A stretch of DNA of 64,000 nucleotides from Chthoniobacteraceae bacterium (lineage in GTDB: Bacteria; Verrucomicrobiota; Verrucomicrobiia; Chthoniobacterales; Chthoniobacteraceae): positions 62,001 to 126,000 of the forward strand of contig CANIWM010000002.1 in the NCBI GenBank assembly GCA_947471505.1. Reading direction: 5' to 3'. Position 1 is the first letter of the stretch; each line of letters begins with the position of its first letter. Of the stretch, positions 27,501 to 58,221 are shown in pieces. The translations under genes were made by a program, and so were the position numbers. The notes beneath the pieces were generated by a model. That model ran no database searches, had not been told where the DNA came from, and saw only the letters and a list, made by a program, of their open reading frames with translations.

Positions 27501-30500
27501 CCACGGTGAAGTCCGCCGAGTCCGCAGTTCCCGCAGTGAGCGCGTAATCGACCGATACACTCGCGGTCGGTGCGACGCTGAGCACGATCGGCACCTGCAC
27601 GGTCCCCGCAGATTCCAGCGCGGCGCTCGATGCTGCCGCGAAACCGACGAACGCCAGCGGCGGAGGCGTGTCGTCGTCCGATATTGCGACGGCGTGCTGT
27701 GTGGTCGCACCGAGCGCCGCGCCGTTTGGATTGCGCAGCGTGATTGTGATGGTTTCATCCGGCTCGGCGATCGTGTCGTTCACGATCGTGAGCGGGATGT
27801 TCTGCGAAGTAGCGCCCGGTGTGAAGGTGAGAAATCCCGAGGCCAGTGTGAAATCGATGCCCGTTCCGAGCGCAGTGCCCGTGCCCGTTTGCCGCCACAC
27901 GAACGTCGGCGCGACTCCCGCAGCGCCACCGACAAACGCCATGCGTGCGCGGCGGTCCAACGTCTGCCGGAGCATGAGCCCCGCTTGCGTGGAACCCGGT
28001 CCGGTGCTCGAAAGAATGCGCGCGGTGATCGTGAAATCGCCCGCGACGGGATGCGTGAAGAAAAAGCCGTCGTCGCCCGTCCCATTGAATCCGTCGCCCG
28101 ATGCCGAGAGCGAATAGACGCCGCCTGCTTCGCTGCCCGTTCCTTGCGTCGCCGAGAGTCCGACGGTGCGGCCTTCGAGCGAGCCGAGTGGTCCGGGTGA
28201 AAGCGTCACATTATCGATCTGCGCAGTCGCCAGCGTTCCTTCCGCGCCCGACGACATCCCGATTCCAGCGGACACTTCGACGCCCATCGCGAGCGGAATC
28301 GTGCTTCCCACTTGTGTCCAAATCGTGCCGTCGCCCGACTGAAACGCGCTCACATTTCCGCCCGTGCGCTGGAGTCGCACCCAGATATTCACCGGGGGAT
28401 TGAGCGTGATCTTCGCGTCCTGTCCGGCAGACGCGATGCGGTGATGAAACTCGAATCCCGTGGACGGTGTCGCGTTTGTATATCCGCGCATCACATTGTT
28501 CGCCGTGCTCTGGCGAATCATCACGCCGGCGGTCGCGCTGGCGTTTGTGTTGGTTTGGCTGATGACGCGCGCGGTGATTGTGCAATTCGCACTGTTTGTG
28601 ATCGGCCAATATACGAAGCGGCCCTGGTCCGTGGTGCCGGTCACGTTGTCGCCGCCGCCATTGATCGTATAGACGCTTCCGGCGAGCGACGAACTGCCTG
28701 CGGGCGTGGTCGCTCCGATATCCGCGGCGGTCTGGGCGCCCTGCGTGCCGCCGGCCGAAAGACCGGTGATGCTCACATTGTCAAACGTCGCCGCGCAAAG
28801 AGTTGAGGTGTTGTAGGAACAAACGTGCAGCCCCGCGAGATAGCTCGCTGTGGTAATGAGAACTGCCTGCGTGCCGACGACGGTCCACGCGACACCATCG
28901 GGCGAGATGGAACTCGTCACCACTCCGGCGACGAGTGATGTGCGGACCCAGTAGGGCAACGGAGGAGGTGCCGTGCCCGTCGCGCTCGCTGTATCGTGCG
29001 TGCTGCGATCTACGAGATATTCGACCGTCACCGGCGCTCCGCTCGTGGCGTTCAGCGCGACGGGAATGTTCACCGTGCCTGCGCTTTCCAAAGCAGCCGT
29101 GCTCGGTGTGGGAAACTGCACAGCGACAGCGGGTGTCTCGTTGTCCGTGATGTAAAAGGTGGCAGGTGTTCCGCGTCCGTAAGATCCGGCGGTAAGCGTG
29201 AGCGTGACGGTTTCCACGCCTTCCGCGATCGTGTCATCGGTCGGCGTGATCTGAACATCCACGCCCTGTGCGCCTGCCGGAATCGTGGCGGTGCCGCTCA
29301 CGGTGGTGTAGTCGGCGCCGTTCACCGCAGTTCCGGACATCGTGTAATTTACATCGAGCGAGGCAGTCGTGCTGCCCGTGCGCGAAAGGTAGAACACGCC
29401 GCCCGTGCTGTTCTCCGCAAAGCTCGGCGGGTAGTTTGAACTGCTGGCATCGACGTAAACCGTCGGCTGATCGTCATCGCGCAACTGGATCATCGCGCTG
29501 CTGCTCGGAGCGTAAATGCCGTAGCTCGCCGATGGTGTAATGGTGACGATGATTGACTCCAAATCTTCACCAAGCGCGTCGTTCAGCGGAGTCACTGCGA
29601 CTTCCACAATGTTGATTCCGTTTCCCGGAATGCTCACGGTGCCCGGCAGAGCAGTGAAGTCCGTGCCGCTCGTCGCGGTGCCGCTCACGGTGTAGTTCAC
29701 GGTCACCGGCGTGGCCGATGAACCCTTTAGCGAAAAGCGGAAGCGGCCCAGCGTGGGCGATGCGCCTTCGACTGCGTTATCAATCCCGATGACCTCCACA
29801 TACGGCGGATCACCCGCGTCCTGAATGGTGATGGATGCGGTGTTGTTCGCGCCAAGTTGGTAGTTGGTCGGTCCTGCGCCGAGTTGCAGCGTAACGCTCT
29901 CCGGCCCCTCGCCGATGCCGTCCCAACGCGGAATAATCGTCACTGCCGCGGTGGTCTGTCCGGCCGGAATAATCAGCACGCCGGGAAGCGTCTCGTAGTC
30001 CACGCCGTGAAGAGCGGTCGCCAATCCCCCTGAAATCGAACCCGCAACCGCATAGTAAACGGTGAGCGGCAGCGTCGTGTCGCCAGCGCGCGAAATCATG
30101 AACGTCGCCGTGTCGGCCGCAGTTCCGGGAACCGCGAGATTTCTCTCCACGGCAGTATCGTCCGTCGCAGTGAGCGCGAGCACCTGCAAATCGTCATCCA
30201 CCACGGAAACCGTCGCTGATGCGGCGCTCGGGTCGATGACGTAGGCGGCGTTCGTTGTCGTTTGTAAAGTGGCCGTCTCGAGTGTTTCGGACGCCGTGTC
30301 GTCGATTGAATTGATCGCGACTACCGCCGACTGTGAGTTTGCGGGAATCACCACCGTGCCGCTCAGCGAAGTGTAGTCCACGCCGTTCGTCGCGGTTCCG
30401 GAAATTGAGTAGTTCACACTCAGCGCCGCACCTGTCGCGCCGGTACGACTCACGGTGATCGTCGCCGGAATTCCCGATCCTTCGATGGTCTTTGCCTCGG

Positions 30501-33339
30501 CGACCACCATGCTGACTTTCGGCAGCGCAGTGTCGTTGTCATCGATGGTCACGGTCGCCGTGCCTGCTCCTGCAACCAAGTATCCATCGCCCGCTACGAG
30601 CGAGACGATCAGCGTCTCGGGGCCTTCCGCAGCCGCGTCATCGGTGGGCGCGATGAGCACTTCGAGTTGGGTTTGATTTGCTGGAATCGTCACCGTGAAT
30701 ATGCCCTGCGAGCCGGATGCAGGCGCGGGCGTCGCCGCATAGTCGCCGGAAGATGCCGTGCCGGAGAACGGCGTGAGATTGACCGTCAAAGCCTGAGAGG
30801 GATCGCCCGTCCGCGTGATGAGAAACTTCGCTGGAGTCGCATTTCCCTCGGTTGCGACCGGGACGCTCGCCGAAATGGCGACTCGCGCTGTGGTGCCTGC
30901 TTCGAAATTCGCACCCGTAAAGTTCGGCCCCACCGTGACGCTGTTGTTGAACAACTCCGCAAACGTGTAGCCGTAAGCGAGCGGCGTCATGATGTAAGTG
31001 CCGACCGCAAGGTTCGGGATCGTGTAATACCCATCCGAATCCGTCTCCACTCCGTTGCTTCCGTTCGCATTCACGATCACGCCTACGAGGCCCTGCCCGC
31101 CGAGTGTCACGCGTCCGCTGATGTTAAATTTTCCGCCGCCGCTGCCGACCGTGATGACCTGGCTGCGCGCTGCGCTGCCGCCTTTCATATCGGACACCGT
31201 GCAAGTCACGACATACGTCCCCGACGTCGGGAACGTGCGCGTGATGACCGGCGAATTCGGTGCGATGGTGCGGTAGCTGGAGTCGCCGAAGTGCTGCCAC
31301 GAATACGCGAGCGTGTCGCCGCTATCGGCGTCCGCAGCAGTTGCGGTAAAAGTGACCGGCACATTGGTCGGCACTACATTCGACGAAGCGACCATCGAAA
31401 GTGTGGGCGCATGGTTGGTGAGGAAGTCGCCGAAGTTCACCTGCACATCGACACTCTTGGGGCTTGTCGCCGTCGCTGCATTGACAGCAACCGTCGTGAT
31501 GTGAATACCCGCATCGGTATCGGAAAACGTGCGGCCAAGGCTGATGGGCGAATCCGTTTTTCCAAACGCCGAGCCCGGCGTCGTGTCGATGAGCTGGATG
31601 TTCGAGCCGCCGCCGCTCGGGTATTTCCAGCCGAGGATGAGTCCTTTGTCGGCCCACGTGTCCGTCGTGTTACCCGTGTAAAGTCCGCGGAACTCGCCCC
31701 AATAGGTCCGAAGGTTGTCCTTTTTAATCTTCAAAGCGAACCGCTTGCCCGGATCGAGGATCGCCTGATCCTGCGCGTAGATTCGGTAAAGCCCGCTCGT
31801 CGTCGTCTCGGTGACGTAGTCGTTTGGCAGCCAGCGGATCTGGTTTTTCCCCTGCGCGTTGTAGTGCCCGGTCGGCACTCCCACGCCGCCCATCACGTCG
31901 TAGTATCCGCCGTATTCACCGTTCGTTCCGACGCCGATAGCGCTCGTTCCGGCGGTGTCCCAATAGTTCGCGTGCGCTAGTCCAAAGACGTGTCCGATTT
32001 CATGCGCGGTCGTGCTGATGTCGTCGCCGTAAATCCACACGCTGCGCCCTCCGCCCCATCCGCCCGCCGGCCGCGCGCCGCCTTTAAGCCGCACCACGAT
32101 GCAGTCGTATTCGTCGTCATCAAAGCCCAACTTCCGGCACTCCGCGCGAGCGTGACTGTGCTCCAGCCCGAGCCCATCAATCGGCCCTCCGTTCGACGAA
32201 TCCTTTTGGATATACCACGCCTCGCTATGGGGAAGCGTCACGGGCGGCGTGACCGTGGAAATGAGCGTCAGCTTTCCGTACGACGCCTTTGCATAGTGGT
32301 CGCCAACATTGCGCATCATATTATAAAGCGCCGATTCCGTGGACGGCGTGTCGTTTTGATCCTGAAAGGTCATCGGGATCACGAGCACCTTGATGTTCCC
32401 AATCGAAGGCGTCGGCACCGCGGGCAAAATGCCCGTAAACGTCAGCGGTCCGCCCGATGCGCCCTCGCCGTAAATGAGCGTCTGCTGGTAAATCGTCGTG
32501 TGACTCCCGTCGCACAAATAGATAATCTCGCCATAAGCCTCCAACGCCGGAGTTGCCTCCGTGATTGGCTGGCCCTTGTCCTCATCAGGGATCGAATTTT
32601 TCCCCGAAACCGGGCAAATGGAAACCGCGACCTTGCTCGGATCAGGCCGCTCGCCCACTTCCAGAACGCGCGCCGGATTCTCGTTCACCGCGAGATCGTT
32701 ATCAATCGCCACGCCGTTCACTGAAGCATCCGCCACCCACAGCACCGACTCCGTGCGGCGCCCATAGACGTGTGCCTGGTAAGTCTTCCCGTTCTCCAAC
32801 TCCGCAACGCGGTGCGTCGGAGCCGGTCCGGAATTTTCGGGCCCCACCCCCTGATAAACCCGAATCGCGCCACGCCTATTCACTCGCTCCTCAAGCTGCG
32901 CCAGCACTTGATGAGGAAGCGCCTGCCTCACCACCATCGGCACCGCCTCACGCAGCGCCTGTTCGGGATTGGTGCGGATGATGTCCTTAAAAACGGGCCG
33001 ACGCTCCGTAGCCAGACGCACACCTTCGGCGATCAAAGCGGAACGCCCCTCGATGGAAGAGGCCATGTATCTCTTCGTCCACGCATCGAATACAGCCTGC
33101 GCGTCTTCATTGGACGCCAGAAGTTCATCCGTCGCAACTTGTTTAGCAGTAATGGTTGCCCGCCCGATTTGCGAATCACCGGATGGCACGACCGTCGAGC
33201 GCGACTCCGAGGCTGGATGCACCGCAAGCACAACCAGCGGACCCGCTCCATCGCCCCGATGCCGGAAACTCCAAACAAAGAGAGTTATTACGAAGGCTAG
33301 GGCACATAGAGAGAGGGTGGTTCTGCGAGAGTAGGTCAT
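24568..33339 (-). CDS. Giant exported metalloprotease with PKD and multiple Calx-beta domains
   Basis: A 2,923-residue protein. N-terminal signal/anchor helix at about 8-25; zincin catalytic domain with HEIGHVFGLAH (446-456; H-E-x-x-H-x-x-G-x-x-H, as in M6/M11-type metzincins); a PKD-like domain (about 640-735); a carboxypeptidase-regulatory-like beta-sandwich (about 735-815). About nine Calx-beta repeats follow, each with an acidic calcium-binding strand. A block of laminin-G/DUF1349-like modules is inserted within the sixth repeat. The C-terminus has DPDFDGLVNLIEYALG, a thrombospondin-type-3/EF-hand-like calcium loop, and ends in KRFYRANVVQ. It is probably cell-surface or secreted, calcium-stabilised, and involved in adhesion or protein degradation. 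Confidence 0.88.
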   Translation of the reverse strand: MTYSRRTTLSLCALAFVITLFVWSFRHRGDGAGPLVVLAVHPASESRSTVVPSGDSQIGRATITAKQVATDELLASNEDAQAVFDAWTKRYMASSIEGRSALIAEGVRLATERRPVFKDIIRTNPEQALREAVPMVVRQALPHQVLAQLEERVNRRGAIRVYQGVGPENSGPAPTHRVAELENGKTYQAHVYGRRTESVLWVADASVNGVAIDNDLAVNENPARVLEVGERPDPSKVAVSICPVSGKNSIPDEDKGQPITEATPALEAYGEIIYLCDGSHTTIYQQTLIYGEGASGGPLTFTGILPAVPTPSIGNIKVLVIPMTFQDQNDTPSTESALYNMMRNVGDHYAKASYGKLTLISTVTPPVTLPHSEAWYIQKDSSNGGPIDGLGLEHSHARAECRKLGFDDDEYDCIVVRLKGGARPAGGWGGGRSVWIYGDDISTTAHEIGHVFGLAHANYWDTAGTSAIGVGTNGEYGGYYDVMGGVGVPTGHYNAQGKNQIRWLPNDYVTETTTSGLYRIYAQDQAILDPGKRFALKIKKDNLRTYWGEFRGLYTGNTTDTWADKGLILGWKYPSGGGSNIQLIDTTPGSAFGKTDSPISLGRTFSDTDAGIHITTVAVNAATATSPKSVDVQVNFGDFLTNHAPTLSMVASSNVVPTNVPVTFTATAADADSGDTLAYSWQHFGDSSYRTIAPNSPVITRTFPTSGTYVVTCTVSDMKGGSAARSQVITVGSGGGKFNISGRVTLGGQGLVGVIVNANGSNGVETDSDGYYTIPNLAVGTYIMTPLAYGYTFAELFNNSVTVGPNFTGANFEAGTTARVAISASVPVATEGNATPAKFLITRTGDPSQALTVNLTPFSGTASSGDYAATPAPASGSQGIFTVTIPANQTQLEVLIAPTDDAAAEGPETLIVSLVAGDGYLVAGAGTATVTIDDNDTALPKVSMVVAEAKTIEGSGIPATITVSRTGATGAALSVNYSISGTATNGVDYTSLSGTVVIPANSQSAVVAINSIDDTASETLETATLQTTTNAAYVIDPSAASATVSVVDDDLQVLALTATDDTAVERNLAVPGTAADTATFMISRAGDTTLPLTVYYAVAGSISGGLATALHGVDYETLPGVLIIPAGQTTAAVTIIPRWDGIGEGPESVTLQLGAGPTNYQLGANNTASITIQDAGDPPYVEVIGIDNAVEGASPTLGRFRFSLKGSSATPVTVNYTVSGTATSGTDFTALPGTVSIPGNGINIVEVAVTPLNDALGEDLESIIVTITPSASYGIYAPSSSAMIQLRDDDQPTVYVDASSSNYPPSFAENSTGGVFYLSRTGSTTASLDVNYTMSGTAVNGADYTTVSGTATIPAGAQGVDVQITPTDDTIAEGVETVTLTLTAGSYGRGTPATFYITDNETPAVAVQFPTPSTAALESAGTVNIPVALNATSGAPVTVEYLVDRSTHDTASATGTAPPPLPYWVRTSLVAGVVTSSISPDGVAWTVVGTQAVLITTASYLAGLHVCSYNTSTLCAATFDNVSITGLSAGGTQGAQTAADIGATTPAGSSSLAGSVYTINGGGDNVTGTTDQGRFVYWPITNSANCTITARVISQTNTNASATAGVMIRQSTANNVMRGYTNATPSTGFEFHHRIASAGQDAKITLNPPVNIWVRLQRTGGNVSAFQSGDGTIWTQVGSTIPLAMGVEVSAGIGMSSGAEGTLATAQIDNVTLSPGPLGSLEGRTVGLSATQGTGSEAGGVYSLSASGDGFNGTGDDGFFFTHPVAGDFTITARILSSTGPGSTQAGLMLRQTLDRRARMAFVGGAAGVAPTFVWRQTGTGTALGTGIDFTLASGFLTFTPGATSQNIPLTIVNDTIAEPDETITITLRNPNGAALGATTQHAVAISDDDTPPPLAFVGFAAASSAALESAGTVQVPIVLSVAPTASVSVDYALTAGTADSADFTVATGTLTFAAGQTVAYVPVAITDDGAIELAETLNIALSAPVNCALGSLSSHVLTITDDDSAVVTVASASPNAAEGGATATATFTRTGPTTSPLTVTYTRTGTATVTTDYTGTTGSVIIPAGSASADVVLTPVQDTASEGTETAIFTVTAGTGYIAGSQASVTLSILDDDRNTVFIVATTPTAVEGGASGLLTVSRTGSTAGSLTVSLTVTGTATSGTDYTTTPTSITSFVLSAGQASRTIPVAPVNDTAVEGTEVMIVQINSGSYDIGGDGYATITLQDNDVPPTIFVSSPGAQGVVVSPANGLRLVATMTDDNLPQVATATWSKVTGPGAVTFTPATSTDGVSNATFSAPGTYLLRVTANDGQFTASDQITVNVGGTAALTPSDWISADIGPATYRGFSGSTDGTWVLTGAGTGYASNSDRAHTVTREVSGNGTIVARLTSINTNGQTAAEAGITIRDTMHRYARRAGLHYSASGQTLRFRTRITANSNDTSVSVAGLALPLWLKLDRDAATDTITASYAPDAAGSPGAWVAIGAPTVVDMDNGADYSLSCNSGSDTIPSTAVFDNLTLTPAAAGTAVLLEDFGYGTQTGTYAYDSATNKHTLSGQPGGLESAAIFRGEQVSGDFIITVLQLDATSGADSAYSGVMIRDSMDDGAMAFVGRNPFGAYSSFVWRTNAKGGTGGLNGITQKTRWLRLVRRGNQVTAFHAPNNAGVPGTWAQLGQPQSVFMTPTVMAGLAVCNGAGVGLNVAQFTSLSIVPLNTAPIVDTGFLPGTITSPLSLAANVTDDGLPDPVTMTWSAPISAGAISFANAASPSTSATFSAVGNYTLRLTATDGIATTFDDLSFTYTSAFANWQSVNFSGGASNPNAAPLLDPDFDGLVNLIEYALGTNPNASSANPGVMSNVNISGSDYIRITFAKNPAATDVTTTVQSSITLGAGSWGNTGFIIESETTTGITVRETTPIGTTQKRFYRANVVQ

Positions 33340-33556: not shown

Positions 33557-34192
33557 TCACGCTTTCTTCGCCCCCGCAAGCAAGGCCAGAATCGACAGCA
33601 CAACCCCGCCCGCCATCATCCCCACGGAGAACGCGATCCCTTTGGGTTTCCTGCCTTCTTCCAGGATCACGACCTTGGCCGGGTCCAGATTTGGGAAAGA
33701 ACTCCGGAGCAGCTTCTCGTCTTTGGAATCGAGCTTCTCGACGTGATTCAGGATCAGCCCTTGCAGGCTGACTCCGTCGCGCATCTTGGTCGGGATCCCT
33801 CCGACCGTGCCAAACTCTTTCGTCTTCACGATCACCCCAACCGTGGATAGCGCATCATCGAGTTCCTTGTCGCTGGCGTTGCCGCTCGTCATCGCTTTGG
33901 AAAATGGATGATTCTTTGAAATAATCGGGTAGAGCGCATCGGTGATCGCCGTCGATTCCGTCGGCTTGCTGACGCTGAATTTCGACTTCTTGTAGTGGTA
34001 AACGCTGGCGGGATAAAGCGCCATCGCGTCCTTCACGACCACATGGCAATTCTCCGGAATCTTCCCCGCCTCCAAGTCGGCGGTCTTTACCTCCTCGGGC
34101 TCATCTTTCGCGTGCCGGGAGAGCGTGAGTTCCTGCCAACCGGTGTACGCGAGCATGATGCCGACGATGACTAGGATGAATCTGATGCGCAT
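33557..34192 (-). CDS. Two-helix membrane protein of unknown function
   Basis: A 211-residue protein with a membrane helix at about 3-20 and another at about 185-207, and a soluble domain between them (about 30-180) that should face the periplasm. There is no recognisable family motif. The gene lies next to the integrated element and outside its left repeat, so it is host DNA. Confidence 0.72.
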   Translation of the reverse strand: MRIRFILVIVGIMLAYTGWQELTLSRHAKDEPEEVKTADLEAGKIPENCHVVVKDAMALYPASVYHYKKSKFSVSKPTESTAITDALYPIISKNHPFSKAMTSGNASDKELDDALSTVGVIVKTKEFGTVGGIPTKMRDGVSLQGLILNHVEKLDSKDEKLLRSSFPNLDPAKVVILEEGRKPKGIAFSVGMMAGGVVLSILALLAGAKKA

Positions 34193-34225: not shown

Positions 34226-34295
34226 TGAAAGTGGCGGAGAGGGAGGGATTTGAACCCTCGATACAGTTTCCCGTATGACGCTTTAGCAAAGCGTT
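34226..34295. repeat. Left attachment site: displaced tRNA-Ser 3' fragment
   Basis: Identical over 70 bp to 40258-40327. It contains the T arm, variable arm and half of the anticodon region of tRNA-Ser on the minus strand. Beyond 34295 the sequence diverges (ATCCTACACAG), so no full tRNA can form here. Confidence 0.93.
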
Positions 34296-34319
34296 ATCCT
34301 ACACAGACGCACCCCTCTT

Positions 34320-34345
34320 ACTTGGCAACTGCTTGACAAATAGAG
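34320..34345. repeat. 26-bp arm-like repeat near left att
   Basis: This 26-bp sequence (begins ACTTGGCAACTGCTTGAC) recurs at 40132-40157 in the same orientation with one mismatch. It lies 24 bases inside the left att and includes TTGACA, so it could be an integrase arm-binding site and/or part of the integrase promoter. Confidence 0.6.
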
Positions 34346-34370
34346 CCCTTTTTCATTCATTTGCGCCCCT

Positions 34371-35510
34371 ATGCGAAAGACTGCGCTCTCTATCAAAAAA
34401 ACGAAGGTCAACGGCAAGCCGTTCTGGCAAGTCACCGTCCCCAATCACGCCAACGGCGGGCGGACTCGGCGCACGTTCCGCGACAAGGGAGAAGCGGAGA
34501 CGTTTTTCCAGCTCTCCAAAGTCCAAGTCCAAAACCACGGCACGGCGGCAATGACGATCCCCGATGCCCTCCGCGTGATGGCGATGGATGGCGAGCGCCA
34601 GCTTGCACCTTTCGGAAAGAACATCCGCGACGCCGTAGGCTTCTACCTCGCGCATCTCAAAGCCGTGGCGGGCTCGAAACCCGTGGCCGACGTAGTGGCG
34701 GCGCTTCTCGCAGCAAAGGCGGCGGACGGCGCTGCCACGCGCTACCTTGGCGACCTTCGCGCACGGCTGAACCGTTTCGCCGCGACTTTCGGCGAGCGGA
34801 TGATTGCCAGCATCACCGGCAAGGAAATAGACGGCTGGCTCCGCTCGCTCAACGGCACAGGCGTTACAAGGAACACGTTCCGGCTCCGATTGTCGGCCCT
34901 CTTCACCTATGCGCGGCGCATGGAATACCTCGCGCTCTCCCCGCTCGAACACGTCGAAAAGGCAAAGGAGACTCCGCAGGCGGCGGGCATCCTCACGCCA
35001 GAGCAAATCGCACGGCTGCTAGAGACTGCGAGCGTGGCGACCCTGCCCCATTGGGCAATCGGCGCATTTGCGGGACTCAGAGCGGCGGAACTGGCGCGGC
35101 TCGATTGGGCGGAAGTGGACTTTGAGCAAGGCGTGATCGAAGTCAAAGCGGAGAAATCGAAGACGGCAACGCGCCGGACAATCACAATGGCCGACAACCT
35201 CCGCGAATGGCTCGCCCCCTATGCAGGCGAGCGCGGCCCCGTATGCCCGGCAGACTTGCGCCGCTTGACGCTCGCAGACCGCGAGCGGGCGGGACTCCGC
35301 ACCGAATGGCCGCAAAACGCCCTCCGCCACTCATTCGGCTCCTACCGCCTCGCAATCTTGCAGGATGCCGCCAAGACCGCGCATGAAATGGGGAACAGCC
35401 CCGCAATGGTTCACCGCCACTATCACAAACTCGTGAAGCCCAAAGCGGCGGCGCGGTATTGGGCAATCAGCCCCGCAATGCCCGAAAACCTAGTCTCGAT
35501 TTCTGTGTAG
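34371..35510 (+). CDS. int: Tyrosine-recombinase integrase
   Basis: Site-specific recombinase of 379 residues that would integrate and excise this element at tRNA-Ser. An N-terminal arm/SAM-like core-binding domain (about 75-195) precedes the catalytic domain. Catalytic Arg lies in AGLRAAELARLDW, the second Arg in QNALRHSFGSYRL (the usual His three residues before this Arg is Asn), and the nucleophile Tyr is in HRHYHKLVKP near 360. The GH preceding helix is GN here. These substitutions occur in some integrase lineages. The gene starts 75 bases from the left att and reads into the element. Confidence 0.93.
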   Translation: MRKTALSIKKTKVNGKPFWQVTVPNHANGGRTRRTFRDKGEAETFFQLSKVQVQNHGTAAMTIPDALRVMAMDGERQLAPFGKNIRDAVGFYLAHLKAVAGSKPVADVVAALLAAKAADGAATRYLGDLRARLNRFAATFGERMIASITGKEIDGWLRSLNGTGVTRNTFRLRLSALFTYARRMEYLALSPLEHVEKAKETPQAAGILTPEQIARLLETASVATLPHWAIGAFAGLRAAELARLDWAEVDFEQGVIEVKAEKSKTATRRTITMADNLREWLAPYAGERGPVCPADLRRLTLADRERAGLRTEWPQNALRHSFGSYRLAILQDAAKTAHEMGNSPAMVHRHYHKLVKPKAAARYWAISPAMPENLVSISV

Positions 35511-35768
35511 TGTTTTCCGCCTGAATAGCCAGAAAATGCGTGAGATACTAGTCTAAAACCCAGCGTTTTCCTACGGGTTTTCGGGCGGATTTCGGTTTTT
35601 TTTCGTTCCCAACGCACTGCAAAACAGGAGCTTGCGTAAATGTGCGCCGCTGTGCGAAAAAAGGCCTTGCCGGGATTGTATCTCTATCGCCAACTCCAAG
35701 GCGTGAAACCTATCACACTACATACACACAAAGATAACGGATGTCTAGCATCCCAGATCGGCACTGCC

Positions 35769-35963
35769 ATGCCGGACCAATGGCCGCAAGCCCTCGTAAC
35801 GACGCCAGAACTCGCAAAGATCACCAAGTTTTCGCCTCGCACGATCTCAGGGTGGATAGCCACGAAAAAAGTGCCGTTCATAAAAATCGGCTCATCCATT
35901 CGTTTCCGAGTCGCCGACGTGATGGCCGCGCTCGAAAAATTCACCGTGAAGGAGGTCCGATGA
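35769..35963 (+). CDS. Excisionase-like HTH protein
   Basis: A 64-residue protein with a winged-helix/MerR-like excisionase motif: TPELAKITKFSPRTISGW followed by KVPFIKIGSSIRFRVADV, the classical HTH_17 layout. It would bind DNA near att or an operator to direct excision. Start at 35769 places the HTH at the N-terminus; an in-frame extension to 35640 reads poorly. Its stop overlaps the next gene by ATGA (35960-35963), so it heads a coupled operon. Confidence 0.85.
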   Translation: MPDQWPQALVTTPELAKITKFSPRTISGWIATKKVPFIKIGSSIRFRVADVMAALEKFTVKEVR

Positions 35964-36448
35964 ATAGCTTTCATCGGGGCGCTCGGGGAGAAAGGGCGTG
36001 GGCGGCTCACCTCACCGAAGCAGGATACCCCGCTCGGCGCGGAGTCCAATATGCGGGCGGCCCCGACTCGCCGGACGTAGCTTGCCCCACGCTGGGAGTA
36101 TTCCATTGGGAAGTCAAAAATCAAGAGCGGGTCAACCCCTTCGCGTGGTTCGCACAGGCGGCAAGTGAGGCTGGCGCGGGGAAAATCCCCGTGGTGGCAA
36201 TGAAGAAAAACGGCACACCGTTCCTCGTCGTCATGCACTCGGCGGATTTCCTAATGCTGCTGAACGCTGGCGCTTTGGCCGAACTCAGCGAAGCACGAAA
36301 GGCGGGAGCGGAAAACAAAAACGCTCGCCCCTGCGATGCTCATCTGCAAATCACGAAGCTGTTTCTACGGCTCACCAAGGACGAATGCCGCGAAGTCCTC
36401 GCGGATATACGGCACCGGCACCCCGACTTTTGGGAGGTAGCACAATGA
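35960..36448 (+). CDS. PD-(D/E)xK-fold nuclease (Holliday-junction-resolvase-like)
   Basis: A 162-residue protein. The metal-dependent nuclease motif is visible: an early Glu (E11 in GARGERAW), SPD at 37-39, and EVK at 51-53 (FHWEVKNQ), the PD-x(n)-ExK pattern of resolvase/VRR-like enzymes encoded by phages and plasmids. It would cut branched or recombining DNA during replication or excision of the element. ATGA overlaps join it to genes on both sides. Confidence 0.8.
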   Translation: MNSFHRGARGERAWAAHLTEAGYPARRGVQYAGGPDSPDVACPTLGVFHWEVKNQERVNPFAWFAQAASEAGAGKIPVVAMKKNGTPFLVVMHSADFLMLLNAGALAELSEARKAGAENKNARPCDAHLQITKLFLRLTKDECREVLADIRHRHPDFWEVAQ

Positions 36449-37422
36449 ACCTCGACGAAGCCAAAGACCGCCTACGCATTCCCGGACTTTGGGCGATGCT
36501 CCACCTTCCCAGCGATTGCCGGAAAAATCCCTGCCACTCGCCTTTCTACGAACCCACAAGCAAGCCGTCCTTTTCCGTCTTCAATGACGGGCGGAACTTC
36601 AAAGATCAACGCACCGGGGAGAAAGGCAGCGCCGTGGATTTCCTCATTCTCGCCACGGCACTTTCTCGCTCTGCCGCGTGCGTGAAGTTCGTCGAACTCG
36701 CAGGCGGCGGGCGATGCAATGCCAGGGTTTCCACTCCGCGCCCCGCAGCGGCCCCACAAGCCCCACGGCCCGCTCCTACGCTCCCAGCGATGGACAGCGG
36801 CACCGATGACGAACTACGGCAGCTCGCGGCGCTACGGCATCTCGACTACGGCGCGCTTCACATCGCTCGCGGGGCGGGGCTCCTACGCTTCGCAACCCTC
36901 AAAGGGCATCGTGCGTGGATACTCACCGACGATGCCGCGCTCAACGCACAAGCCCGCAGGCTCGACGGCAAGCCGTGGGAACACCTCGACGGCGCAAAAG
37001 CCTACACCCTCCCGGGCTGCTGGGCAGGCTGGCCCGTGGGCGCAAAGCAGGGCGCAAACTCCCCCGCATTCACCCTCTGCGAAGGTGGCCCCGATGGACT
37101 CGCCGTGCTTCATTTCATCACGAAGGAAAAGCGACTCGCGGACGTGTTCCCGCTGGCGATGCTCGGCGCTAGTCAGAGCATCCACGAAGACGCGCTCCAA
37201 TTCCTTGCCGGAAAGAAAGTCCGCATTTACCCGCACATTGACGCCGCCGGAAAGAAGGGCGCGGAACGATGGGTGGCACAGCTTCACGCCGTCGGCGCGA
37301 GGGTGGACATTTTCGATTTCACCGGACTCCGCAAAGCAGACGGCTCACCCGTGAAAGACCTAAACGACTGCACGCAAATCCACCCCGACGACGCCGCACA
37401 ACTGGAAGGACTATTGCCATGA
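36445..37422 (+). CDS. Toprim primase-like replication protein
   Basis: A 325-residue protein. The N-terminal region (about 20-95) aligns with the DnaG/CHC2 zinc-binding fold (NPCHSPFYEPTSKPSFSV, then GSAVDFLILA), but the second Cys pair is absent. A Toprim domain occupies about 195-310, with the catalytic Glu in FTLCEGGPDGLAVL and the metal-binding Asp in YPHIDAAGKKGAERW. Such proteins make or help make primers in plasmid, phage and satellite replication. ATGA overlaps on both sides couple it to the nuclease and the ATPase. Confidence 0.83.
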   Translation: MNLDEAKDRLRIPGLWAMLHLPSDCRKNPCHSPFYEPTSKPSFSVFNDGRNFKDQRTGEKGSAVDFLILATALSRSAACVKFVELAGGGRCNARVSTPRPAAAPQAPRPAPTLPAMDSGTDDELRQLAALRHLDYGALHIARGAGLLRFATLKGHRAWILTDDAALNAQARRLDGKPWEHLDGAKAYTLPGCWAGWPVGAKQGANSPAFTLCEGGPDGLAVLHFITKEKRLADVFPLAMLGASQSIHEDALQFLAGKKVRIYPHIDAAGKKGAERWVAQLHAVGARVDIFDFTGLRKADGSPVKDLNDCTQIHPDDAAQLEGLLP

Positions 37423-38435
37423 GCAACGCACGAATCATAACGCCCGCAGAGGCGACAACCTCGGCGCCCACAGCGCCCGCGCCCTTGGACTACTCCGCCG
37501 CCTTACTCACATCACCGGAATTGAGCGGGATGGACGTTCCCAAGCGCCCGGCACTACTCGGCAAATGGCTCAAAGAAGCAGACCTCGGCTTCGTATTCGC
37601 CGCACGCGGAGTAGGCAAAACATGGATGACGATGCTCATCGCTAACGCCCTTGTGGACGGCGCTAAACTCGGCGAATGGGAAGCCGGAGAAGCCCCGCGC
37701 AAAGTCCTCTACGTAGATGGGGAAATGTCCCTCGCCGATTCACAAGAGCGGATCAACGCCATCGGCATCACCGCCCCCGGCTTTGTCTGGCTGCACCACG
37801 AACACCTTTTCCAGACGACGGAACAAACGATGAACATCGGCAAGCCGGAGTGTCAGGATGCTATATCCGCACAGCTACAAAGCGGCGACGTGCTCATTCT
37901 CGATAACCTCTCCGCGCTCTGCCGTGGCGTAGCGGAGAACGATAACGACAACTGGGAAACCCTGCTCAACTGGCTGTTCGCCTTCCGCCGTCGCCAAGTG
38001 ACGGTGATCATCGTCCACCACGCGGGGCGCAATGGAGAGATGCGCGGAGCATCCCGCCGCGAAGACGCCGCCAACTGGATTCTCCGCCTTCAAGACGACA
38101 CGGAAAATGATGACGACCGCGTAAAAGCAATCGTCTCCACGTTCGCCAAAGCGCGAGGCTGCAAACCGCAAGACGCGATGCCGCTCCGATGGGTGATCCA
38201 CATCCACGACGGCAAGCTCACCTTTACGTGCAAGCCCCATTCCGGCCCCGACGCCCTCGCCGCGCACATCCGCGCAGGCGTTGAAAGCGCCACCAAATGC
38301 GCGGAGCTTCTCGGCGTCGCAAAAGGCACCATTTCCAAGTGGGCGCAAAGACTGAAAAAGGATGGGCGCATCCGCATTGAAGGCAACAAATACCTCCCGC
38401 TCAAAGGCAGCGCCGAAGACGACGAATGCGAGTAA
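37419..38435 (+). CDS. RepA/DnaB-like AAA_25 ATPase (replicative helicase candidate)
   Basis: A 338-residue RecA-fold ATPase. Walker A ARGVGKTW (about 67-74), a beta-strand KVLYVDGEMS, Walker B DVLILDNLSAL (about 157-167), and VIIVHHAGRNGEMRGAS, typical of hexameric RepA-type helicases of plasmids. The C-terminal 60 residues contain a helix-turn-helix (AELLGVAKGTISKWAQRL) that could bind DNA. Start ATG overlaps the previous stop. The GTTTCC repeat array begins nine bases after its stop codon, consistent with an initiator/origin pair. Confidence 0.87.
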   Translation: MSNARIITPAEATTSAPTAPAPLDYSAALLTSPELSGMDVPKRPALLGKWLKEADLGFVFAARGVGKTWMTMLIANALVDGAKLGEWEAGEAPRKVLYVDGEMSLADSQERINAIGITAPGFVWLHHEHLFQTTEQTMNIGKPECQDAISAQLQSGDVLILDNLSALCRGVAENDNDNWETLLNWLFAFRRRQVTVIIVHHAGRNGEMRGASRREDAANWILRLQDDTENDDDRVKAIVSTFAKARGCKPQDAMPLRWVIHIHDGKLTFTCKPHSGPDALAAHIRAGVESATKCAELLGVAKGTISKWAQRLKKDGRIRIEGNKYLPLKGSAEDDECE

Positions 38436-38443
38436 CCCACCGC

Positions 38444-38633
38444 TCGTTTCCATCACTACATCTTAGGGCGTGCAAATGGAAACGAGAGCCGTGCCGATGC
38501 TCCTCGTTTCCATCCCGTTTCCCAAAAGCGCCCCTCGTTTCCGCTTTCGGCCCTTCGTTTCCATCTCGTTTCCATTCCCGTTTCCCGACGCATGGAAACG
38601 AGACGGGAGCAAATGGAGACAGCAAGGAAACGA
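38444..38633. repeat. Iteron-like array of GTTTCC motifs (possible replication origin)
   Basis: About ten copies of a CTCGTTTCCATC-type motif in 190 bp, in both orientations. Clear copies on the plus strand: 38444-38455, 38503-38514, 38534-38544 (variant), 38554-38565, 38565-38576. Inverted copies: 38476-38486 and 38592-38602. Shorter CCGTTTCCC copies lie at 38515-38523 and 38578-38586. This resembles iterons of plasmid origins or a multi-operator. It follows the helicase gene directly. No convincing protein is encoded here. Confidence 0.75.
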
Positions 38634-38678
38634 CACTCCACACCGCACACCCCCGGCAGAAAAATCCGCCTTCAACAC

Positions 38679-38721
38679 GTTGCTGCGCTAACGCTCGCAA
38701 GCTCGCTTATAGCGCAGCAAC
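38679..38721. repeat. Perfect 12-bp inverted repeat near the iteron array
   Basis: GTTGCTGCGCTA (38679-38690) pairs with TAGCGCAGCAAC (38710-38721) around a 19-base loop. No T-run follows, so it looks less like a terminator than a structured origin element or protein-binding site. Confidence 0.6.
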
Positions 38722-38778
38722 CCCTTCAGAGGCAAGTATTTAGGATTTTCGCTGGCGACTTAGCAAAAACGCCCCAAG

Positions 38779-39318
38779 TCACTTTTTTATGTTCATCAAT
38801 ATCGCGATGACAGTGACCGCCAATGCCAAGATTAGAAATATCAGCCCGACAAGCGACTTTTCGCCATCGGCGCTCCTTGCCGACGGAGTGGCACCGGCAT
38901 CCGCGATTACGACTAAGTGGAGGAACAGCCCCACGTATGGCAGAGCACTAGCGTAAAGCATGGCGACAAACAAAAGCGATAGAAGTCCGGCGAGCATCCT
39001 TCCACGATATAGCTGCCCAAGTCCGGGAATGAGAAACGAAAGCACAGCGGCGGTGCCCGGATTGCCTTGCTGGGGCTGAACACTCGGAGCTTTAACAATG
39101 ACGACACGCGGCGTGCGAACAGTCGGCACCGGGGCGGGAGCTTCCAGCGTATTTTGCAGCATACTCAAGGGGTGCCAATCCGGCTGGCCCGAAATACAGA
39201 ACAGGTCGGCAGCGGTAATCGCTCCATTGCACCACATTCCCCGTAGTTGAGTGATCGAAAACGGACCGTTTGTCGCGGTGGCCGTCTTGACGTAGTAGCT
39301 GACCTTGGGCGTGCTCAT
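38779..39318 (-). CDS. GYF_2 domain fused to TM2-like membrane segments
   Basis: A 179-residue membrane protein. The N-terminal 50 residues form a GYF_2/DUF4339 domain (SYYVKTATATNGPFSITQL, then GQPDWHPL), which in bacteria binds proline-rich peptides. After a Pro-rich linker comes a TM2-like unit (FLIPGLGQLYRGRML) with two or three helices, and a final helix at about 158-176. It is carried within the mobile element in the opposite orientation to the replication operon. Start at 39318 is chosen over 39420 because the GYF_2 domain begins there. The role is unknown: it might be a cargo or membrane-acting accessory gene. Confidence 0.78.
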   Translation of the reverse strand: MSTPKVSYYVKTATATNGPFSITQLRGMWCNGAITAADLFCISGQPDWHPLSMLQNTLEAPAPVPTVRTPRVVIVKAPSVQPQQGNPGTAAVLSFLIPGLGQLYRGRMLAGLLSLLFVAMLYASALPYVGLFLHLVVIADAGATPSARSADGEKSLVGLIFLILALAVTVIAILMNIKK

Positions 39319-39534
39319 ACGAAAAGGGAAGTAACGCTCCCGCCCGGCGTAAGCCAGTAAGAAGTGAAAGCAACTCGACGCGGACTTTGCAATTACTAGA
39401 AACCGCTTTCCGAAAATCACAAATTTTGTGACAAGCCCTCCCTTCGGCAGCGTGCCTCATTTACTCCCAATCAATAGATGTCTTCCGGCGTGCATCGGTT
39501 TGACGTTTCCATCGCGATAGCGTAAAAGCACCCG

Positions 39535-39849
39535 ATGGAACCGAACGCCCGATTGAGCGCAGCCCTACGGCAGAAAGCCCCGGCCAAGCCCGTAAAAGCA
39601 CCACCACAGCGCAAGAGCATAGCGCAACCCGTGAAGTGCATCAGCCTATTCCCCGCAGACCTCCAGCGCATCGAAGAAATCCGCGACACCCTCCGCGCAC
39701 ACGGGCGCACAATCAGCGCCAGCCACGCCATCCGCCTCGCACTCCGCGCCGTCGCCATAGACCTCACAACCCTCGCCCCTCTCCTCGAAGCCATGCAGAA
39801 AGAAGACGGCAGAACCCTACGCCACACAGACGCAAGCCCTGTAAAATAG
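39535..39849 (+). CDS. Small basic protein, ribbon-helix-helix candidate
   Basis: A 104-residue basic protein. A Lys/Pro-rich N-terminus (1-35) is followed by VKCISLFPADLQRIEEIRDTL and TISASHAIRLALRAV, a layout like a ribbon-helix-helix DNA-binding domain (strand, helix, turn, helix). It may repress element genes or control copy number. It lies alone near the right att, so no operon context helps. Confidence 0.62.
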   Translation: MEPNARLSAALRQKAPAKPVKAPPQRKSIAQPVKCISLFPADLQRIEEIRDTLRAHGRTISASHAIRLALRAVAIDLTTLAPLLEAMQKEDGRTLRHTDASPVK

Positions 39850-40131
39850 AGCCCCGCCGCCGACTTTCTATTTTATATGAGTTATCTTGTATGATGTTAT
39901 GACGTTACGTGACTCATAAAGCACTGATTACAAGCCGCTTACGCCGCCTCTCGCCCCGTCGCGCCATCTGCTCCCATCTCCCGCAGTCTCAATAAGGCCA
40001 TTTCGGAATGTTCCACACCGGACAATCCAAAAAATAAACACCCTCCCCGCCGTGAAAGCATCCACAAAAACGGAAACGTCGCGCCCCGCTCTGCCATTTT
40101 CCCGCATCAAACGCACATCGGGCGGAAATCC
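39850..40131. other. Non-coding stretch inside the right end of the element
   Basis: About 280 bases without a convincing gene. The first 70 are AT-rich (TATTTTATATGAGTTATCTTG) compared with the GC-rich surroundings, which could be a promoter or a recombination-accessory region. Confidence 0.4.
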
Positions 40132-40157
40132 ACTTGGCAACTGCTTGACGAATAGAG
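40132..40157. repeat. 26-bp arm-like repeat near right att
   Basis: Matches 34320-34345 with a single A-to-G change, in the same orientation. It lies 100 bases inside the right att. A pair of such sequences just inside each end suggests integrase or excisionase arm sites. Confidence 0.6.
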
Positions 40158-40257
40158 TGCGTTTTTACGCGAAAACGTGCGCGACGGTGCAAAGCGCAAT
40201 TTTTCGACACTCAGAGCGGACCCGCCCTGAAACCCTGTATTTAAGCCACTCTCAGAG

Positions 40258-40327
40258 TGAAAGTGGCGGAGAGGGAGGGATTTGAACCCTCGATACAGTT
40301 TCCCGTATGACGCTTTAGCAAAGCGTT
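40258..40327. repeat. Right attachment site within the intact tRNA-Ser gene
   Basis: 70-bp perfect copy of 34226-34295. It covers the CCA end, T arm, variable arm and anticodon arm of tRNA-Ser. The crossover must lie somewhere within it. Confidence 0.93.
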
Positions 40328-40353
40328 GCTTTCGACCACTCAGCCACCTCTCC
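40264..40353 (-). tRNA. tRNA-Ser (anticodon GCU)
   Basis: A 90-nt class II tRNA on the minus strand: acceptor GGAGAGG pairing with the 3' CCTCTCC, a D arm GCTGAGTGGTCGAAAGC, anticodon stem ACGCT/AGCGT with loop TTGCTAA (anticodon GCT), a long variable arm around CATACGGGAAACTGTATC, T arm GAGGGTTCAAATCCCTC and encoded CCA. The 5' end faces host DNA at 40353, and the 3' two thirds come from the integrated element. Confidence 0.96.
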
Positions 40354-43163: not shown

Positions 43164-46100
43164 CTACGGCTTCGCCACGCGATAGAATCGCTGCGGGTGC
43201 AACGCCACGTCGGGGTCGGTGTAAGTCGTGATGGGGCCGCTGGCGAGGACGGTCACGGGCGTCCAAGTGATGAGGTCTTCGCTGTGCTGAACGACGTAGC
43301 TATTTCCCGCGACGCTGGGGAAAGTGATCGTCGCTTCGGCGGGGGTGTAGCTGATCGTGGCACTCGGGCGCGAGTTCGCGTCGGTATCGCTCGTGCCGAA
43401 GTACGCCTCGGCGTCGGCATAGAAGCCGTCGGCGTCGGCATCGCGGATGACGGTGAGTTGGTCCACGAATCCGGCGTCGAGGCCGGAGCGGACGAAGTCG
43501 TCTTTGATGTAAGCCCACTTCAGCGTGTGCGTCCCGGCGGGCAGTGTGAAGTTGCGCAGCGTCCAGCCGACTTCGCCTTCGATGGCGGCTTGCTCCACAT
43601 CATCAATGTAGAACCGCAAGTAGTCGTAAGTCGCCTCCGACGACACGCCCCAATAGAACGAGCCTTTCGCCGGGCCTTCCACAGTCGTCGTCATCACGCT
43701 CTGCGAAAGGTCGCCGATCGCGCCGCTGCGCGCGGCATCCTGACCGTCGTGCGAGTAGAGCGTCTGCGGTGCCCAGAAAACAGCGCCCGTCGTCACGAAC
43801 GTCTGCCCCGGCGCATCCACCGCAGCGGCCAGCCCATCGGATAAAGAGCCGACGTTGATCGTCAGCGTCGCGCTTCCTGTGCCGAAAGTGTTCGTCGCCT
43901 GGATCGTCACAGCGTGCGTGCCGACGGCGGGCAGCGTCCCCGAGATAAGTCCGGTCGTCGGCGAAATCGCCAGCTCCACCGGCAAGCCCGTCGCCGCGAA
44001 GCTCGTCGGCGCATTCGTCCCAGTGACTTGGTAGCGGAACGGCACGCCCGCATACGCGCTCACCGTCGCGCCCGACACCACGGGCGGCGTGGTTATCGGC
44101 GTCAGCGCGACTTCATCGATCCACCCAGCATCCGAGCCCGACGTGACGATCTCATCCTTGAAATAATCGAAGTCCACATTGTGCGCGCCGGGGCCGACAG
44201 CATACGACACCGTCGCCCAATCTTGCTCGCCGCTGATGTAGGCGCGGATGACGCCATCCACGACGAAGATGAGGTAGTCGTAGTTCGCCTCCGACGACAC
44301 TTTCCAGCGGAAGGAAATCGTCGTCGGCCCGTTCACCGTCAGCTCCATCCCTGCAAATTCATTGTGCGTGATCGCGCCGCTCTGCGCCGCATCTATGCCG
44401 TCGTGCGTCGTCGTCGCTTGGGAAAACCAATTACTGTCGCCAAAAGGAACGAGCTTATCCGAGGTCGGCAACTCCACCGCCGTCGAGAGCGCAGGGTCTG
44501 CGCCGAGCACTTGAAATACCGCAAACTCCGTCGTCGTCCCCGTCGCGTTCGTCGCGCTGATGTTTCCGAAATAAACTCCTGCGCCGCCTGTCGGCTCGCC
44601 CGTGATTGCGCCCGTCGTCGTGTTCACGGTCACGCCCGGCGGCAGGCCGAGCGCGTCGTAGGCCGTGGGGAAATTCGACGCCGTGATTTGATGCGCCAGC
44701 ACCGCGCCCTCGCGCATCGCGATGCCGAGGCTCGATGTGATGACTGGCAGCGGCAGCGGCCCCGTCGCGGTCGCGCCGTAGAAAGTGATCGTCGCCGCGT
44801 CGAGCGTGCCGACATCGCCCACGGTCGCGTCCACTGCGCGCAGCGTCCAGTTTCCCTCCGAGCGTTCGCCCCAAAAGTGCGTGCTCGAAAACGTCCAGTC
44901 GAGGTTTGCCCCGCTGTCGTTCAGCCGCGAACGCGCCAGCCGCGAAGTCATCCCGCTCGGCGAAGTCAGCACCCATTCGATGTTGCCGCGATATTGATGC
45001 GTCGCATTCACATGCACCGTGACGTGCTCCACGCGCAAGCTGTCCACCGCCGCGACGGCGAACGTGTGCGAGGCTCCGGTGCTGCTGCCATCCGGGATTT
45101 CTAAAGCGAGCGCCGGGGCGGAAATGGCGTGCGTTTGCAGCGCGGCGAGATTCGTCCAGCCCACCGCCATCGTCGTCGCCGCCGTCGCGTCGATGAGCCC
45201 CGCGCCATACTTCACATTGAACTGAAACCCCGCGCCGTTCGTCGCCCAGCCGCCGTTGTCCGTGTCTATTTTCCTAGAAGTCCTCACGAGGATTTCCTGC
45301 ACGTCGCGATAGCCGAGCGCGGGGTTCGCTTCGAGCATCAAAGCCACGACGCCCGAGACGAGCGGAGTCGCCGCCGAAGTCCCGCCGAAGGTCCGCGTGA
45401 AGTCCGCGCTCGCATAGTCCGAGCCGCCGCCCGCGTTGTAGCCCGTGGTGCCCACGCGGTCTGTCGTCGTCACGCCTTGCGTGCCGCCGTTTGATGGAGC
45501 GCAGACCAAAATGTTCGCGCCCGGCTCGCTGTAATACGCCTGCCGCCCCGCGTCTGTGATTGCCGAAACCGCCATCGCGTAAGGCGAGTTTGCCCAGCCA
45601 TCGTAGTTCGAGTCATCGCCGCTTTGGTTCCCATTTCCCGCCGCCCACACGAACACCGTGCCGTGTCCGTCGCGGCCCGTCGCCGTCGCATCGGCCAGCG
45701 CAGCGATGCCCAGCGGTCCCGGCCCGCCCGCGCCGAATCCCCCATCGAACGGCCCCCAGCTATTGCTCTTCACCGCGATGATGTCCTTGTGCCAAGCATA
45801 AGCATCCGCCTCATCCAAATCCGAAATCGGCCCCGCAATCAGCCGCATCCCCACGAGCGTCGCGAGCGGCGCGGAGCCCGTCCCACCCAGCGCATTATCC
45901 CCTCGCGCCGCCGCCACACCCGCGCACGAAGTTCCGTGAAAATCCCCCGCGCCCGGCGACGGATCATTATCCAGATCATTAAAGTCACGGTCGTTCACCG
46001 TGTCCGCATTGGGCGACAAGTCCGGGTGCGCGACCTCCATTCCATCGTCCACGATCCCGATGCGGACGCCCGCGCCCTTCCACGAATCCCACGCCGTCAC

Positions 46101-46592: not shown

Positions 46593-46684
46593 AGTTGGAG
46601 ACGAGGTAAGCGGCGCGAAGATGACACGCCGGGGAGAAAGTTCCACAGCATATTCCGGCACGTGGATTGCGCCAGCAGCCCTCC

Positions 46685-47323
46685 TCAATCTGCCGTCGCA
46701 GCTTTCAACAGCTCTCGCGCAATCTCGCGCAACTCCTTATCGGGGTCCGAAGTCACAGCTTGGCGGAGGTATGCCTTCGCGGCAGGGGTGCTAAATTGGA
46801 TGAGCCCATCAAGAGCGGCACGCCTCACATTGCGCGCTTGGCCGCTGAGAGCGCTACCGAGGAGTGCGACTTTCGCGGCGGCGTCGGTGTCATGGTCAGT
46901 CTCGGCAATGGCTCCGATGAGGGCTTCGCGGACGTTTGGGTGACGCTCGTTTTTCCACAAGCGCATGACCTCGGAGAGGGAGGCTGGAGTGTCTATGGAG
47001 ACGAGCGCGCAGATGGTCTGAGCGCGCTCGGCAGGGTCGCTGGTCTGGTGGATTTCGCGGACGAGTTCCTCCGGCGTAATGGTGGGAACGGGCGAGGCTT
47101 TCGCAGGCTGGACGTCGTCACCGCTCGTTGACTTGGGCTGGGACGCTTCGGCGATGGTCGGGGTTGGGGAAAAAGAGCGCGTGCTTTGAACTCGGCTCGC
47201 TTCCACGGGCGATGGATGAGCGGGAGGAATCGCGTCGGGCGTGAGCCACCACGCGGCGATACCGATGATCGCAACGGATGCCGCGATGAGTGCATAAATA
47301 GTAATGTTTCGGGATTGACTCAC
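46685..47323 (-). CDS. Membrane-anchored HEAT-repeat-like protein
   Basis: A 212-residue protein with an N-terminal membrane helix (about 7-27), a Pro/Ser-rich linker (about 30-80) and helical repeats from 85 on (ALVSIDTPASLSEVMRLW, HPNVREALIGAIAET, ARNVRRAALDGLIQF) that read as HEAT-like armadillo repeats. It is probably a periplasm-facing scaffold. It is divergent from the DUF4331 gene, with about 140 bases between. Confidence 0.78.
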   Translation of the reverse strand: MSQSRNITIYALIAASVAIIGIAAWWLTPDAIPPAHPSPVEASRVQSTRSFSPTPTIAEASQPKSTSGDDVQPAKASPVPTITPEELVREIHQTSDPAERAQTICALVSIDTPASLSEVMRLWKNERHPNVREALIGAIAETDHDTDAAAKVALLGSALSGQARNVRRAALDGLIQFSTPAAKAYLRQAVTSDPDKELREIARELLKAATAD

Positions 47324-58130: not shown

Positions 58131-58221
58131 AGCCGCACTTTAGGCCCGCGAAATGCGCGAAACTGCGCGAAAGAATGGGTGCGGAAATTTTCGCGACTTT
58201 TCGCGCTTTTCGCGGGCTGCC

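Follow-up and report, generated by a model that had tools for sequence, protein, structure and literature searches.

The 64,000-nucleotide stretch analyzed here (the window: positions 62,001 to 126,000 of contig CANIWM010000002.1, assembly GCA_947471505.1, from a Chthoniobacteraceae bacterium) carries at 34226–40327 an integrated element that we read, with a probability of about 0.6, as a minimal phage satellite, which is inserted in a tRNA gene, has its own replicon, and probably depends on a helper for packaging. The element most likely travels inside phage particles rather than alone, as indicated by sister islands that carry a phage-packaging gene, and its anatomy supports the view that it is probably able to excise and replicate. 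At a broader level, we consider the odds to be about even that it belongs to an undescribed, widespread Verrucomicrobiota family of minimal (5–15 kb) satellites that share interchangeable replication modules with phages of the same lineage, the replicon in question comprising a DnaG-type primase, a RepA-type helicase with an iteron-reading domain, and an origin in which inverted iterons flank a CC(T)TAGG/CCTATA center.

Boundaries and Gene Content of the Element

The element is bounded by a 70-bp direct repeat (34226–34295 and 40258–40327, minus strand) with 70/70 identity and a spacing of 6032 bp, giving a length of ~6.03 kb. The repeat matches the 3′ portion of tRNA-Ser(GCT), which is encoded on the minus strand, and the perfect tRNA-derived boundary described in the original prediction is borne out. 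The second attachment (att) copy lies inside an intact tRNA-Ser(GCT) gene (40264–40353, ARAGORN), while the first is the chimeric tRNA end adjoining int, for which ARAGORN makes a second tRNA call at 34232–34318. A 34-bp imperfect direct repeat on the plus strand (34320–34353 and 40132–40165, 88% identical) would flank the attP core on opposite sides in the circular form, and its copies may be integrase arm sites. The G+C content is 0.588 within the element and 0.603 and 0.624 in the flanks, and composition thus gives no sign of foreign origin. In G006, a close relative, this tRNA-Ser (62/62 identity) and the right-hand gene are both present without the element, which suggests an empty tRNA-Ser junction; we say suggests because only 385 bp are present to the left of the tRNA in G006, and these are unrelated. 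No relatives of the left-flank gene (33560–34192) were found in a search of 57 genomes.

Seven open reading frames (ORFs) lie between the repeats, none of them structural. The first, int (34371–35510, plus strand), encodes a tyrosine integrase of 379 amino acids (aa) (Phage_integrase 4e-10, phrog_1 5e-29) that retains the catalytic residues R237, R319, and Y351 in an alignment of 11 family integrases. It is followed on the same strand by xis (35640–35963), encoding a 107-aa HTH_17/excisionase-family protein (HTH_17 1.3e-10, phrog_66 excisionase 9e-8, TIGR01764 excise above cutoff) with no match to PF05930 AlpA up to E = 1; by a gene for a 162-aa PDDEXK/RusA-like Holliday junction nuclease (35960–36448; phrog_244 2.8e-17, PDDEXK_15 6e-4 and below cutoff); by a gene for a 325-aa primase (36445–37422) with a zinc-finger-like N-terminus and a Toprim domain; and by rep (37419–38435), encoding a 338-aa RepA-like hexameric helicase with a C-terminal winged helix-turn-helix (wHTH) domain (AAA_25 9.5e-24). 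These five ORFs are all intact, and ATGA overlaps at 35960, 36445, and 37419 couple xis, nuclease, primase, and rep, in line with the operon that had been proposed from the sequence. Scans of the seven element proteins with Pfam, PHROGs, and NCBIfam found no virion, lysis, relaxase, or conjugation genes, which agrees with the earlier claim that virion and conjugation genes are missing. PADLOC likewise detected no defense cargo, its cross-matches being limited to a mad1-like helix-turn-helix (HTH) and an RT-associated DnaG-like protein.

Replication Module and Putative Origin

The window Rep has the RSF1010-type RepA hexameric helicase fold. In a fold comparison, the RSF1010 RepA structures 1nlf, 1g8y, and 1olo hold ranks 1–4 (1nlf with an E-value of 7e-12 and a TMt of 0.71), and by sequence profile RSF1010 RepA (1g8y) is the sole hit (E 0.0067). 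The Walker A residues GKT66–68 and D162 are invariant in an alignment of 13 members (A1), and the helices and strands at residues 276–327 form the C-terminal wHTH. For the primase, we built a profile (A2) from single-pass hits, since the iterated primase profile drifted into Rep, some loci fusing both proteins; in several relatives a single ORF covers primase and helicase. This profile matches DnaG structures (Aquifex DnaG 2au3, 1.4e-10; 1d0q, 4e-6), on the basis of which we assign the protein as a DnaG-type primase. Its Toprim motif, E213-G214..D217, is invariant, and the protein is too diverged for the Pfam Toprim model, which on its own gives 0.14 for the window primase.

Directly after the rep stop codon, ten copies of CGTTTCC occur on both strands within ~190 bp (38445–38632). 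We read this iteron array as a putative replication origin (oriV). The original prediction had overlooked this inverted-repeat array, as well as the 34-bp imperfect repeat described above and a 104-aa ORF described below. CGTTTCC is found only 4 times in the 57.9 kb outside the element and 3 more times inside it, and nowhere else in the window does any 7-mer recur so frequently within 280 bp; the next densest 7-mer cluster, CGCGAAA with six copies within 280 bp, is at ~57960–58400. The first pair of the array, CTCGTTTCCAT-[CACTACATCTTAGGGCGTGCAA]-ATGGAAACGAG (38443–38486), is an inverted iteron pair that forms the core of the putative origin, with a center of the CTTAGG/CCTATA kind that is common to relatives.

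Dozens of verrucomicrobial, alphaproteobacterial, and viral contigs show the same layout behind a related helicase gene. Among 104 related loci, 46% contain a single 7-mer five times or more in the 280 bp after rep, compared to 0.7% of random windows. The iteron itself varies by locus (CGTTTCC, CGTTTCAC, CGTTGCA, TCTTGCA, TGTCCCA, TGTTGCG, and others). The expression CC(T)TA(GG) or CTATA, which was chosen after inspecting both sets of loci, occurs in the gap of the inverted pair at 20 of 27 and 14 of 19 loci, compared to 6.9 and 3.7 for shuffled gaps. Of five further loci, three likewise contain a single 7-mer five times or more, and two of these three match the expression. Loci with more similar Rep wHTH domains also have more similar iterons, and the persistence of this relation after correction for the ATPase domain (partial r of 0.30, compared to 0.13 for the reverse; 0/999 permutations) supports, without proving, the interpretation that Rep itself may read the iterons. 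We also note that a set of alphaproteobacterial and viral relatives share TGTCCCA/TGGGACA iterons after rep (L065, L067, L092, L093, L098, L123, and L188).

Relatives and Sister Islands

Rep is single-copy in the host genome and absent from all nine same-genus genomes examined. Apart from the host genome, 10 of 147 related genomes encode Rep relatives with ~40% identity. Single-sequence searches of the genome and viral collections found no close relatives; only the alignment profile reached them, in 45 genome contigs and 58 viral contigs. The genome contigs are mostly from Verrucomicrobiota, with others from Methylobacterium, Microvirga, and Bradyrhizobium, and one from Coxiellaceae. Rep has no match over most of its length in the phage collection or in 72,556 plasmids, and the only matches among named phages and plasmids are partial, with a single Roseobacter phage and a single Nitrobacter plasmid.

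In six related loci, the tRNA end is duplicated beyond rep, enclosing 5–14.5 kb, so that the search for synteny at other tRNAs in Verrucomicrobiota suggested by the original prediction was successful. Together with that in the window, these make seven islands, which use tRNA-Ser and five other isotypes; at several other related loci, int adjoins a tRNA. Three of the sister islands carry a gene for the small terminase subunit (terS) after the origin, namely L042 (tRNA-Arg, 5.1 kb; phrog_51 1.7e-17, Terminase_2 above cutoff), L022/L038 (tRNA-Glu, 9.7 kb in L038; phrog_4102 2.2e-17), and L026/L055 (tRNA-Gly, 9.2 kb in L055; phrog_57 1.1e-6). PHROG and Pfam scans of selected genes, together with local profiles, found no gene for the large terminase subunit (TerL) and no virion gene in L042, L038, or L055. 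The presence of terS without virion genes is a mark of satellites. The other islands are L041 (tRNA-Cys, 7.2 kb), L048 (tRNA-Thr, 14.5 kb), and L064 from the cultured Cephaloticoccus primus CAG34 (tRNA-Arg, 5.4 kb), the last with int, xis, rep, and primase and no recognized terS. A 149-aa gene after the origin in L041 looks TerS-like by eye, but as it matches no family we did not count it as terS.

Further elements point to an exchange of parts. On a 3.8-kb contig of the same genome (G000:C150, L239:1–3756), a tRNA-Cys is accompanied by an unknown 357-aa gene, an HTH_17 gene, the tail of a nuclease gene, and a primase gene whose product is 74–76% identical to that of the window; here, a DUF3987 helicase replaces RepA, starting at the same ATGA with similar first residues. 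In G030:C275 (L242:173–5663), direct repeats of 58 bp enclose a unit of 5.4 kb that has clear genes only for int, HTH/xis, primase, and DUF3987 helicase, and is possibly the smallest of its class. A 7.5-kb tRNA-Lys island in G007:C25 (L248:7625–15137) has a 58-bp repeat and encodes a Prim-Pol protein, a cargo protein with RCC1-like repeats, and an integrase 61% identical to that in the window. This group thus repeatedly contains compact islands that combine int with replication genes and whose parts are exchangeable. Separately, the genome G013 contains five relatives of the window primase (contigs C111, C152, C62, C2, and C54), which suggests a high load of such elements in that genome.

The helicase-plus-iteron replicon also occurs in phage-like contigs. 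L085 has a recognized TerS (phrog_4102 1.3e-11) followed by a gene that is TerL-like by eye; L077 has a weaker TerS, again followed by a TerL-like gene (by eye, its sole match being a PHROG of unknown function); TerL is encoded in L102 (phrog_2 9e-34); L100 has a portal gene (6e-106) between protease-like and capsid-like genes; and L071 has a head–tail gene. The TerL profile phrog_2 matched 3 of 21 IMG/VR records, where the absence of TerL is weak evidence, because the same profile misses the TerL-like genes of L077 and L085. In the Rep tree, the sequences from Verrucomicrobiota group together with support (100/99), and this group includes islands as well as phage-like loci.

Proposed Life Cycle and Alternative Explanations

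From the boundaries, the intact genes, the conserved operon, and the iteron array, which can be read directly from the sequence, we infer the following steps of excision, replication, and packaging. Int and Xis would excise the element as a ~6-kb circle, after which the C-terminal wHTH of the helicase would bind the iterons, with the hexamer loading at the CTTAGG-centered inverted pair. The primase would then prime the unwound strands for extension by a host polymerase, as in RSF1010 (RepC/RepA/RepB′) or with P4 alpha, and the nuclease may resolve junctions or concatemers. A phage would package the replicated DNA, and subsequent integration would restore an intact tRNA; spread, we infer, is by helper phage. 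The sister islands would use a similar excision and replication core, to which some add terS, presumably redirecting the packaging of the helper, while the window copy, which has no recognizable terS, would rely on a pac/cos site or on its concatemers being packaged by the headful, in the manner of PICMIs.

Several points weigh against a satellite. The profile scans with Pfam, PHROGs, and NCBIfam found neither terS nor another known hijacking or packaging-redirection gene (ppi, rpp) in the window copy, and the absence of virion genes from the sister islands is likewise a result of scans of selected genes. With one TerL profile, the host genome gave only two weak matches, and hence no helper prophage is visible. 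The islands do not form one clade in the Rep tree, the island label being spread over branches, and the window branch is long and loosely placed (88/39). Phage contigs that encode TerL, a portal, or a capsid protein also have the replicon, such that a reduced prophage could look identical. Finally, the helper, the excision, the circle, and the particle are all predictions.

The original prediction had left the choice between a phage satellite and an integrative plasmid, and here terS in three sister islands tips the balance toward the satellite, with the qualification that the replicon is not confined to such islands. A plasmid or mobilizable replicon of the integrative type, excising, replicating from the iteron origin, and spreading either by transformation or through mobilization in trans by a conjugative element, would account for the complete plasmid-style replicon (RSF1010 RepA-type helicase, primase, and iterons), for the lack of terS in the window copy, and for compact relatives without recognized terS, such as L064 and L242. 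We nevertheless regard it as unlikely, given that no relaxase or conjugation gene was detected in the element proteins, that the plasmid collection holds no match over most of Rep, and that the wider Rep family occurs among viral contigs, in addition to the terS genes of the sister islands.

We give still less credence to a reduced temperate prophage that has lost its structural genes and kept its integration and replication half, even though the same replicon lies beside TerS, TerL, portal, or capsid genes in L077, L085, L100, L102, L078, and others, where int and xis are frequently found upstream. The window element retains both att sites and all of its ORFs intact, and no fragments of phage structural genes were seen inside the repeats. 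Several 5–10 kb islands at different tRNAs follow the same compact plan, and those that keep terS but have nothing beyond it give the impression of selection and not of decay, while the related primase and different helicase at the same ATGA in G000:C150 indicate module exchange between compact elements. That the element is an immobile genomic-island fossil retained for its cargo seems very improbable: the single copy of rep and its absence from the nine same-genus genomes would fit, but the integrase catalytic residues, the operon, the att repeats, and the origin are all intact.

Comparison with Known Systems

Among the closest parallels to a minimal satellite of this kind are the phage-inducible chromosomal minimalist islands (PICMIs) of Vibrionaceae, which average 6.7 kb, have the core genes int, alpA, and prim (shown to be required in PICMI115), lack terS, and are packaged as concatemers (PMC10803314). 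The window element resembles them in its small size, its int gene, its small HTH activator/excisionase-like gene, its ATGA-type overlaps, the single gene between the HTH gene and the primase, and the lack of terS and of capsid-remodeling genes, its gene order int–HTH–X–prim paralleling that of PICMI115. It is not a PICMI, however, since it is integrated at tRNA-Ser(GCT) and not at fis; it also has an HTH_17 protein rather than AlpA by profile, a DnaG-type primase, a separate RepA helicase, and iterons, and its host belongs to the Verrucomicrobiota. Tycheposons and VEIMEs are further satellite-like islands, of marine origin, that target tRNA genes or are encapsidated in virions (in part PMC10803314).

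The original prediction had set the element apart from the PICI, PLE, and SaPI families. The PICI part of this claim goes too far, as terS in the sister islands, the HTH excisionase, and the primase, helicase, and iterons are PICI-like traits. As in PICIs and SaPIs, there is a site-specific island with an excisionase-like HTH protein and a primase/helicase with an iteron origin, and terS is present in sister islands in which no terL was found. The PICI plan (int, an excisionase/AlpA-type regulator, a primase/replication module with an origin, and no virion genes) is present, the packaging gene excepted. The proposed satellite would thus resemble PICMIs and PICIs in its mode of action without belonging to either family. 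The window element differs in being shorter, in having a separate DnaG-type primase and RSF1010-like helicase, and in its phylum, and neither a stl/rpr-type repressor nor terS was identified in the window copy.

P4 is similarly a tRNA-targeted satellite with a Toprim-primase, a helicase, a DNA-binding replication system, and iterons (in part PMC4234260). However, P4 alpha is one protein, whereas the primase and helicase of the window are encoded by separate genes, and Pfam and PHROGs gave no matches to sid-, psu-, or delta-like genes in the element, which is not P4-like. The tasks that P4 alpha fuses are divided in RSF1010 (IncQ) among RepC, RepA, and RepB′ (PMC4234260). RSF1010 RepA is the nearest solved helicase structure, and iterons, hairpin-like sites, and a dedicated primase are further likenesses; in contrast, the window primase is DnaG-type and not RepB′, there are no mob genes, and the element is integrated in the chromosome. 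The RepC function seems to be fused to the window helicase as its C-terminal wHTH. Archaeal plasmids of the pRN1 type and phage BIP-1 share an origin directly downstream of the replication gene and a C-terminal winged helix, but differ in their archaeo-eukaryotic primase (AEP) with a superfamily 3 (SF3) helicase and in a large stem-loop without iterons (PMC4234260). By gene content, the window element is neither an integrative and conjugative element nor an integrative and mobilizable element, and it is not a complete prophage.

Accessory Genes and Neighboring Features

Two genes of the element lie outside the operon, one encoding a 179-aa GYF_2 domain protein with a TM2-like membrane part (38779–39318, minus strand; GYF_2 6.8e-8) and the other a small 104-aa ribbon-helix-helix-like protein (39535–39849, plus strand; weak ParD_antitoxin/RHH match, 0.23). 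Neither is present in any related locus. The GYF_2-TM2 gene had been put forward as an argument for a distinct family; as it occurs at one locus only, it is one-off cargo and uninformative on family membership. Elsewhere in the window, we note by eye a 2923-aa minus-strand ORF at 24568–33339, whose N-terminal part is metalloprotease-like and which contains many Calx-beta-like repeats, and a 1174-aa subtilisin-like protein at 43164–46688.

Implications for Verrucomicrobiota

To our knowledge, phage satellites have been described almost only from Proteobacteria and Firmicutes, and a literature search of papers available without subscription found none dedicated to satellites in Verrucomicrobiota; two papers name both the phylum and phage satellites, but each only a single time and in work on different topics. 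We also know of no described origin in which variable iterons, apparently read by a helicase-fused wHTH, surround a conserved center. If confirmed, the present reading would extend the minimal-satellite lifestyle to a phylum of abundant soil and water bacteria about whose phages very little is known, and rep, the primase, and the 190-bp origin would constitute a testable replicon for genetic tools in Verrucomicrobiota. A replicon common to islands and phage contigs would, moreover, allow the origin of satellites from phages to be asked directly.

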